In this document: piece after piece, positions 1 to 2,253 of the stretch
Numbering within the stretch: position 1 is the first letter of the stretch
Layout of the letters: each line of letters starts with the position of its first letter
DNA from: Melaminivora jejuensis
GTDB lineage: Bacteria > Pseudomonadota > Gammaproteobacteria > Burkholderiales > Burkholderiaceae_C
Length of the DNA stretch: 64,000 bases
Assembly: GCF_017811175.1 (NCBI RefSeq)
Contig: NZ_JACWIJ010000002.1
Location: forward strand, 2,542,001 to 2,606,000
Reading direction: 5' to 3'
Translations under genes and position numbers: made by a program
The notes under the pieces: model-generated
Database searches by the model: none
Told to the model about the DNA's origin: nothing
What the model saw: only the letters and a program-made list of their open reading frames with translations

Positions 1-921
1 CTCGCGCGACTGGCCGTCGATGATCAGCTCGTGCTGCGCCTGGCAGGCGTAGTCGGCCCGCCCGCCCCGGCCATCGGGCAGGGCCTTGATGCCCGCCTGG
101 CGGCGCAGGCGCACACGGCTGAAGACGCCGAAATTGCTCAGCAGTACCTGCACGTCCTTGAGCAGCTGCGGCTGGCTGGAGGCCAGGCGCACCGAGCAGC
201 TGCTGCCATTGCTGCAGACGTTCACCGTGCCGTCGGTCTGGAACAGCGCGCGCAGGTAGGCGCGCACGCAGGCCTCGCTGCCCTGCCAGACGACTTCCGG
301 CACGCGCAGCTTGGTCTCGCGCGTGAAGCCCCACAGGGCCAGCACGCGCGCCAGCAGCACCGAGCGGATGAAGACCTGGTTGCGCTCGGCCACGGCCACC
401 GGTGCAACGCGGTAGCTGCGCGGCGTGCGCGCGGCCCCGGCGATCATGGTGTTGACCAGCGTGGTCACCCGCTCGGCCAGGGCGCGCTCCTGGTTCCACA
501 GGTTGATGCACACCACTTCCTGGCCTTTGCCACGGTGCGTGAAGTGCCCATCGCCCGTGACCAGGCCCAGCAGCAGGCCCAGGTCTTCGCCGCCCTGGCT
601 GCCGAACTGGCCCTTGCCCGATTGCACCCACAGCTCGTCGCCGACCTGCAGCTCGGACAGCTTGATCTTGCCGCGCTGGGTGTAGAAATCGTGCCAGGCG
701 GTGGCCTTGATCTCGTAGCCGTCTTCGGTCGTGACCTTGAAGACCTCGGCCTGGCGCGCCGTCATGAAGGCCGGCTTGGCCGGGCGCACTTCCACGCCGC
801 GCCCCGGCTGGCCCAGTGCGCGGCGATCGACCGTGGCCTGCAGCGGCGCGCCTGCGTGGTACAGGTCGCCGATGCGCACCAGGCCATGCTGCGTGGCCAG
901 CCGCGTGTCGGCGGTGACGCA
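1..921 (-). other. LAGLIDADG homing-endonuclease intein in NrdJ (left part only)
   Basis: A protein splicing element begins at Cys1 (codon 921-919), immediately after extein residues ATNP. Residues 1-20 read CVTADTRLATQHGLVRIGDL, a typical splicing block A. Block B carries T74-A-W-H77 followed by LQVGDEL near 91-97. Two LAGLIDADG-type helices follow: LGLLLGLVTGDG at about 114-125 (acidic Asp124) and YLRALFQTDG ending near 231 (acidic Asp230). So 307 intein residues with an intact endonuclease core are visible; the C-terminal His-Asn splice motif and the resumed extein (expected CGE) are beyond base 1. Ribonucleotide reductases are a classic intein host, and this NP/C site is a known insertion point in the family. 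Confidence 0.9.
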
Positions 922-1808
922 GGGGTTGGTCGCCTGGATGTTCTCGGTATAGCGCAGGTTGTTGTCGGTGTTGATCTGGTCGAGAAACAGGATGCCCGGC
1001 TCGGCGAAGTCGTAGGCCGACTTCATGATGGTGTCCCACAGTTCGCGCGCGCGCAGCTTGCGATAGACCCACTGGCCGTCGGCGCGCTGGCAGGCGCCCT
1101 CGCGGATCAGCTCCTGGCCGGGGGCGGCGGCGTGGATCAGCTCCCAGTCGCCGTCCTGCTCCACGGCCTGCATGAAGGCGTCCGGCACGCCCACGGACAC
1201 GTTGAAGTTGTTCCAGCGCCCGGGCGTGCGCTTGGCAGTGATGAAGTCCAGCACATCCGGATGATCGATGCGCAGCACGCCCATCTGCGCGCCGCGCCGG
1301 GCGCCGGCGCTCTCCACCGTGGAGCAGGACTGGTCGAACACGTTGATGTAGCTGCACGGGCCGGAGGCCATGGACGCCGTGCCCTTGACCAGCGCGCCGC
1401 GCGGGCGGATGCGCGAAAAATCGTAGCCCACGCCGCCGCCTCGGCGCATGGTCTCGGCGGCCTCGCGCAGCGCTTCGTAAATGCCGGGGTAGCCGGCGTC
1501 ATCGACGCCCTGGATGCAGTCGCCCACGGGCTGCACGAAGCAGTTGATGAGCGTGGCCTGGATGTCGGTGCCGGCGGCGCTCATGATGCGCCCGGCGCCA
1601 ATGGCGCCGGCGCGCAGGTTCTCCAGAAAGCGCTGCTCGAATTTCTGCCGCAGCTCGGGCTTTTCCACCGACGCCAGGGCGCGCGCCACGCGGGCAAACA
1701 GATGCTCCTCGCTGCTCTCGCCGTTCTTGAAATATTTCTCGCTCAGCACATCCTGGCTGATGGGCTGGGCGGGCAGGCTGGGGCGAGGCTGGTGGATTCG
1801 CGTTGCAT
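1..1808 (-). CDS. nrdJ: adenosylcobalamin-dependent ribonucleotide reductase (class II), intein-interrupted, 3' end outside the window
   Basis: Class II reductase alpha chain, which makes deoxyribonucleotides using a B12-derived radical. Visible family motifs, reading leftward from 1743, include NCFVQPVGD, GYDFSRIRPRG, ARRGAQMGVL and the radical-enzyme dipeptide NP at 927-922. There the host protein is interrupted by an intein, so the remaining extein lies beyond the left edge. The only sensible start is the ATG at 1808 (MQRESTSLAPA), but it is out of frame with the body. Adding one base at the GG of 1776-1777 joins it to LPAQPISQDVLSEKYF, giving about 296 residues before the intein. As written, translation from this ATG stops after 21 codons. 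I judge this a one-base deletion, probably a sequencing error. No cobalamin riboswitch is convincing upstream. Confidence 0.88.
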
Positions 1809-2253
1809 GGCGTCGGGTTCTCGGCAGAAAGGAAAGAAAAAGAGGAATGAAGAACGGGGCGCGCCGGCCATCGCGCCAAAGCGGCGATAGCCGGGCCGTG
1901 GAGGGCGGGCCGGGCCAGGGGTTGTACACCCGGGGAGCGGCCCGGCGCCCGGGCAGGTGTGCCAGCTTGTGTCCCGGGGCTGTCCGGGCTGTGATTTCCA
2001 TAGCGCCGGCTCGGCACCCCATGCGGGCAGCGCGGGGTTTGCGGTCGGCGCCGGCGGTTGCTGGCGCACAGTCGCGCAAAATCCACAAAGTCCCTGCTGG
2101 GGTATCCGTCATTGCCTTGCCACGGCGGTGCAGTCTTTGGCAGGGCCGTGCAGGCCGCTCGGGATCGACAGGGGCGGGGCCAGGGCCGAAAACACCGGCA
2201 GGCCGGACGCGCCGGCGCGCAGCGCGCCATTTTCGCAAATGCGCCCGAGCCTT
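1809..2253. other. intergenic region between nrdJ and the EAL-domain gene
   Basis: A 445-bp gap downstream of the EAL gene and upstream of nrdJ. No convincing ORF is present; the long reading frames here are composition artefacts. The nrdJ promoter must lie in it, but I see no clear -35/-10 pair, no strong NrdR palindrome and no complete cobalamin riboswitch. A purine-rich tract at 1828-1852 (CTTTTTCTTTCC read on the minus strand) lies just upstream of the nrdJ ATG. Confidence 0.5.

Follow-up and report, generated by a model that had tools for sequence, protein, structure and literature searches.

How much of the standard splicing chemistry can an intein do without when it sits at the active-site cysteine of an enzyme of DNA-precursor synthesis? 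The question arises at the left edge of a 64,000-nucleotide stretch of the Melaminivora jejuensis genome (G000:C2:2542001-2606000, here called the window), where the gene for the class II ribonucleotide reductase (RNR) NrdJ carries an insert; its open frame, of 1335 codons from stop to stop, lies on the minus strand, which is the strand that was read, and crosses the edge, beyond which the DNA to the left was fetched in addition. The insert is a class 1 intein of 374 residues (window 921 to 1 and on to -200, minus strand; L004:9800-10921). It ends in Gln, and its sequence makes it likely to be a homing-competent class 1 intein at the active-site Cys of NrdJ, predicted both to splice and to cut DNA. 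Its parts are laid out as follows, where the 18 rows are full-length inteins aligned with one another, the window's own included:

1..921, minus strand: intein residues 1-307 of 374, from translation and leftward extension.
G000:C2:2541800-2542000, left of the window, minus strand: intein residues 308-374, from leftward extension.
862..921, minus strand: block A, CVTADTRLATQHGLVRIGDL, with the nucleophile Cys1 (TIGR01445; C1 invariant in the 18 rows).
691..702, minus strand: block B, T74-A-W-H77 (T74, W76 and H77 invariant in the 18 rows).
544..576, minus strand: LAGLIDADG motif 1 (block C), LLGLVTGDG, with Asp124 (G123, D124 and G125 invariant in the 18 rows).
223..258, minus strand: LAGLIDADG motif 2 (block E), YLRALFQTDG, with Asp230 (D230 and G231 invariant in the 18 rows).
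922..1809, minus strand: N-extein, the N-terminal part of NrdJ (NrdJ_Z, TIGR02504), ending ...ENIQATNP; its true start is uncertain.

The junctions read ...ENIQATNP / CVTADTRLATQHGLVRIGDL ... VFDTTQDDHNTVIFNGLVTGQ / CGEQPLPPYGCC; the insertion falls between NP and CGEQ, and the NPCGE motif supplies the +1 Cys, which we take to be the thiyl-radical catalytic cysteine (C439 in E. coli NrdA numbering). With the insertion at the catalytic Cys, a failure to splice would kill NrdJ. An initial annotation of the window had proposed an intein in a class II RNR directly after NP, and this is borne out both by the sequence from 921, where block A follows ...IQATNP, and by profile matches: over the translated window 1-1500, TIGR01445 (intein_Nterm) scores 41.2 bits against a cut-off of 24.5, LAGLIDADG_3 78.2 against 22.5, and Ribonuc_red_lgC 187.5 against 23.9; Pfam Intein_splicing reaches 29.0, under its own cut-off of 35.8. 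Its further points, TAWH as block B at residues 74-77, two LAGLIDADG motifs with their acidic residues and a full-size intein, stand as well, by translation, by the invariance of Asp124 and Asp230 in the 18 rows, and by a length of 374 residues with an intact LAGLIDADG domain. The C-terminal splice residues, placed by it beyond the left edge, end at -200; of the His-Asn and following Cys that it expected there, the Cys of CGE is present at +1, but the last two residues are Gly-Gln.

The intein has the Cys1, the TxxH of block B (T74..H77) and the +1 Cys of class 1, and fills the C-terminal position of that class with a variant residue, Gln374. As in LAGLIDADG homing inteins, D124 and D230 are both present, and the predicted model of a relative (L049) has a fold like that of known homing inteins. 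A bacterial intein-like (BIL) domain was considered and rejected, since the +1 Cys is present and the RNR site conserved. Among the five genomes of the genus, three (G072, G151, G152) read an empty NPCGEQ, restoring the intein-free NrdJ exactly, as had been expected of some related NrdJ; one is the window's own; and the last (G150, L030) holds another intein at the same codon, of 382 residues, ending in His-Asn and 35% identical to that of the window. The exteins are 90-96% identical to those of the empty congeners, and 91% and 94% identical to those of G150 (last 150 and first 200 flanking residues). Two dissimilar alleles and the empty state thus coexist within one genus. The notion that the insert is ordinary RNR sequence, which the initial annotation had named as what an alignment might reveal, or an artefact of assembly, is refuted by the congeners that lack it at the exact codon, and similar inserts occur in many other genomes; we give it practically no weight.

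The C-terminal end is where the intein leaves the canon. In place of the His-Asn of block G it has Gly373-Gln374, and in place of the His of block F:13 (twelfth from the end) it has Asn363. A class 1 intein normally ends in Asn; passages of PMC4031507 accept Gln, Asp and Glu as variants, and list the penultimate His and block position F:13 with the residues that assist. Invariant in the 18 rows are Cys1, Thr74, His77, Asp124, Asp230, Asp356, Asn363, Gly373 and Gln374, the invariance of Gln being partly by construction, as this alignment (A1) was gathered by a pattern that covers only endings in Gln, His-Asn (HN) or Ser-Asn (SN). In a scan of genome contigs, 17 of 18 loci end in Gly-Gln (GQ) and one, from Tepidiphilus (L066), in Gly-Asn (GN); private decay of block G was thus rejected, the GQ ending being common to many relatives and hosts. 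At the NrdJ site, 99 distinct inteins (identical copies merged) comprise 41 HN, 34 GQ, 22 GN and 2 SN endings, the HN counts being lower bounds, as searches based on A1 favour GQ inteins; the pattern read 97 of them (41 HN, 34 GQ, 20 GN, 2 SN), and a profile check of the 134 loci with a match added L066 and the viral L091, which ends in Gly-Asn like L092 and was counted with it as one. Position F:13 is Asn in 33 of the 34 GQ inteins; it is His in 18 of the 22 GN inteins, Ser in two, Asn in one (L066) and Glu in one (L091); in the 41 HN inteins it is His 26 times and Asn 15 times, and in both SN inteins His. With Gly in the penultimate position and a residue other than His at F:13, 33 of 34 GQ inteins thus lack two known helpers of step 3. 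The phage-type GN inteins L109 and L110 have Ser at F:13. A GQ intein of 324 residues in a divergent RNR-like gene (L022, G054) has His at F:13 and Cys at F:4, and upstream of it lies the apparent end of a further intein, LTGN/C.

The hosts are many. Searches with the GQ-built profile, which may miss HN inteins, were sorted by reading the endings, in samples that overlap. The family sample (150 genomes) gave 18 genomes with a match, 3 with GQ and 11 with HN/SN inteins at the NrdJ site, the other four matches being to NrdA inteins in G008 and G038, to the divergent RNR in G054 and, weakly, to G019; at E <= 1e-10, the order sample (399 genomes) gave 28, with 10 GQ, 17 HN/SN and one NrdA intein (G873), and the phylum sample (398 genomes) 20, with 3 GQ and 17 HN. 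GQ carriers include, by name, records of Hydrogenophaga, Giesbergeria, Roseateles, Pelomonas, Sphaerotilus, Methylobacter, Vreelandella, Thioalkalivibrio and Thiohalomonas. More diverged GQ inteins occur in viral contigs (L087, L088, L089, L094, L095, L128), and three of these are shortened (L094, 276 residues; L095, 290; L128, 246), their endonuclease apparently being lost. Only 3 of 72,556 plasmid records matched, none from Pseudomonadota, and 48 of 50,697 phage records, none at >=60% identity; no recent vector was thus found in these searches.

Between distant hosts, the inteins are more alike than the proteins that carry them: intein identities of 60-66% stand against extein identities of 38-52% for Methylobacter, Vreelandella, Muproteobacteria, Thioalkalivibrio and G526 (L054, L056, L057, L061, L069; for L061 over 52 N-extein residues only). 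These sequence comparisons are hard to explain without transfer between hosts, a reading that is well supported. The other 15 GQ pairs (intein 61-81%, extein 63-84%) neither support nor exclude recent movement. An intein that still splices while its endonuclease no longer homes, inheritance now being vertical, would suit the closest comparison, that of the window with L007 (intein 81%, exteins 78% and 82%), and the GC content, at 68.8% in the intein against 67.9-68.6% in the extein; equal composition is thus no sign of recent arrival. We regard such retirement of the endonuclease as unlikely, given that both catalytic Asp residues are invariant in the 18 rows, that a single genus of five holds three empty sites, one GQ intein and one dissimilar HN intein at the same site, and that distant hosts share inteins more alike than their exteins. 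The ratio of non-synonymous to synonymous substitution (dN/dS, NG86) between L007 and L049 points the same way, at 0.107 over the intein as a whole (0.087 in its endonuclease, 0.144 in its splicing part), compared with 0.157 and 0.113 for the exteins; the L050-L064 pair gives 0.082 for the intein, all these figures coming from pairs of relatives, as none could be obtained for a pair that includes the intein of the window.

The order in which the endings changed depends on the tree. In a maximum-likelihood tree of 85 full sequences, which contains the ending residues and leaves out 12 near-copies, L066 and L091, 32 GQ inteins form one clade (98/93), whose sister is the viral GN intein L090 (99/92); beyond it lie nine GN inteins, mostly from phages or viral contigs (among them BnrdE of SPbeta, L096, a staphylococcal SPbeta-like phage, L097, Brochothrix phage A9, L098, and a Miltoncostaea plasmid, L099), and the HN/SN group stands apart; the GQ intein L022 is on a very long branch. 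With the last 26 residues removed, a quick tree of 57 rows (without L022 or near-copies, and with one third of the HN/SN rows) joins L090 to the GQ intein L088 at 77 and needs two changes, and a careful tree of 50 rows, with L066 and L091 (again without L022 or near-copies, and with one sixth of the HN/SN rows), puts the changes for GQ at three on a mostly unresolved backbone; a single GQ clade has a p-AU of 0.06 there. An invariant Gly-Gln with one origin from Gly-Asn was given up when the GN inteins L066 and L091/L092 were found and the 50-row tree was seen. A single step from GN to GQ is possible; the sequences would also agree with intermixed GN and GQ forms, or may be too weak to tell.

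If the intein splices, Cys1, aided by Thr74 and His77, would form the N-terminal thioester; the chain would pass to Cys+1, which is also the future catalytic Cys of NrdJ; Gln374 would cyclise to an aminoglutarimide and release the intein, with neither a penultimate His (Gly373) nor an F:13 His (Asn363) to help; an S-to-N shift would close NP-CGEQ; and the endonuclease would copy the intein gene into empty nrdJ alleles. The intein is apparently active, to judge from its catalytic positions, the low dN/dS, the transfer between hosts, and searches that found no uninterrupted RNR in the host genome. Gly-Gln may instead have cost it its splicing, so that it only cleaves or stays put, leaving NrdJ inactive and the cell reliant on NrdA. 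Several observations lean that way and weigh against a splicing intein. Both known step-3 helpers are absent; passages of PMC4031507 describe C-terminal Gln as slow in Pol II inteins, and Asn as better. Four congeners share an in-frame nrdJ start, MQRE; the ATG at the equivalent position of this assembly (window 1806-1808) is offset by one base from the reading frame that follows. The offset could stem from an error in sequencing, from use of another start or from damage to nrdJ, and in that last case the argument from necessity would shift to NrdA. Of the 11 further GQ-NrdJ carriers searched, 10 also have an uninterrupted gene of NrdA size, so that the majority have an alternative to the GQ intein. 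L066 has the same scaffold and the F:13 Asn, yet ends in Gly-Asn, so that Gln is not indispensable to the scaffold; and the dN/dS values, as said, are those of relatives. Even so, we hold loss of splicing to be quite improbable: Gly-Gln recurs in 17 of the 18 genome-contig loci and in 34 of 99 inteins from many hosts, dN/dS between relatives is low, the open frame is kept throughout, the host's own NrdA is interrupted by an odd intein, and in the remaining GQ-NrdJ carrier (G584, 93% complete) no other RNR was found.

That second enzyme bears directly on what the host can afford. The host genome, in 2 contigs at 99.99% completeness, yields two genes for RNR large subunits with PF02867, NrdJ and NrdA; a search of it with PF13597 gave no NrdD, the control search finding NrdD in 6 of 14 known genomes. 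NrdA (L005:6399-10409) carries an intein of 379 residues between NQ and GGKRKGA:

L005:7719-8855, equal to G000:C2:2265718-2266854: host NrdA intein, Gly at +1.
L154:2761-3894, L155:1951-3084 and L191-L195: its relatives, Gly at +1.

It begins with Cys1, has Thr63 and His66 as block B, ends in Ala-His-Asn and is followed by Gly. Four empty relatives read NQGGKRKGA; the boundary is thus exact. The +1 Gly is present in all eight carriers read (G000, G058, G038, G724, G822, G849, G860, G873), and the start CFAPDT in six of them. Among the matches listed for the family sample, G000, G058 and G038 have this intein; in the order sample it is found in 6 of 399 genomes (G000, G724, G822, G849, G860, G873), and in the phylum sample in 1 of 398 (G000). 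A viral scan with the intein alone gave nothing, and with its alignment one weak partial match. A further NrdA intein lies one codon on, NLC/CMTADQ...ITKN/TEITL (L009, L010, L137, also L155 and L192), directly at the catalytic Cys, its final Asn preceded by Lys and followed by Thr at +1; it falls outside the census of 99.

With Gly at +1, the host NrdA intein has no nucleophile for standard splicing. Since NrdA, the only other RNR found, is thus also interrupted, the host must tolerate at least one rule-breaking intein. In G038 (99% complete, about 120 contigs) no other RNR was found, and its single NrdA holds the +1-Gly intein together with a second one. BILs offer a precedent in passages of PMC4031507: they lack the +1 nucleophile, and type A BILs, which end in His-Asn, can splice, with cleavage dominant, by a proposed direct attack of the freed amino group. 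Tentatively, and with the balance somewhat against it, all DNA-precursor synthesis in this host might hang on two rule-breaking splicings, a Gln cyclisation without helper His in NrdJ and, in NrdA, a reaction at HN/Gly without a +1 nucleophile, which would join the exteins by direct amine attack, the route proposed for type A BILs, or else yield an NrdA that works as two pieces. If so, there would be a mobile family of NrdA inteins without step 2, in G038 inside what appears to be the sole RNR. The +1-Gly intein is the odder lead of the two, and its presence in the second RNR makes the minimum splicing chemistry in an essential enzyme an experimental question. For NrdJ, pairs provided by nature, among them L066 and the intein of the window, make it testable how a terminal Gln affects splicing and what takes the place of the two absent histidines.

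Gln-ended inteins are already known, from the RNR of Chilo iridescent virus and from Pol II, and the NrdJ intein is a further Gln-ended class 1 intein. In the passages cited here, such inteins appear as isolated cases; here Gln is the common ending in a group of mobile inteins that sits in bacterial chromosomes and recurs in viral contigs, alongside close relatives ending in Gly-Asn and a canonical His-Asn intein competing for the same codon. No description of a Gly-Gln RNR intein group or of the +1-Gly NrdA intein was recognised in titles and openings of abstracts, which is weak evidence of novelty, subscription literature lying mostly outside. An RNR intein of Methylococcus capsulatus is reported in passages of PMC517821, and passages of PMC1635734 speak of an allele group, RIR1-l, common to bacteria, their phages and iridescent viruses. 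The 'glutamine-type' RIR1 intein of Chilo iridescent virus, which splices better with Gln than with Asn according to passages of PMC4031507 and PMC549080, shares the RNR host family and the C-terminal Gln with the NrdJ intein and differs in belonging to a eukaryotic-virus gene; the likeness is one of description, and no sequence of this virus was recognised among the loci of the scans made. The Pyrococcus Pol II inteins share the C-terminal Gln, Cys1 and Cys+1 in passages of PMC8175363; they differ in having the block F His, in that Gln is slower than Asn, and in their archaeal DNA polymerase host.

Nearer to hand, the HN inteins of the NrdJ site (G150, L030, for example) share the codon, a similar size and LAGLIDADG-like motifs, but have the canonical His-Asn, are 35% identical and form a separate clade. 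The NrdJ-1 split intein (8ubs), presumably without an endonuclease, is split and 18% identical over 142 aligned residues. The BnrdE intein of SPbeta-type phages (NC_001884, L096) and its kin occupy the corresponding RNR site, N[P/L]/C.../C.E, and have a penultimate Gly; they differ in their Gly-Asn ending, His at F:13 and phage NrdE host, L096 being 34.9% identical over all 374 residues. The Tepidiphilus intein L066, with its N-terminal part missing and 67% identical in its best segment to the part within the window, shares the site, the F:13 Asn and the penultimate Gly, and differs in its Gly-Asn ending.
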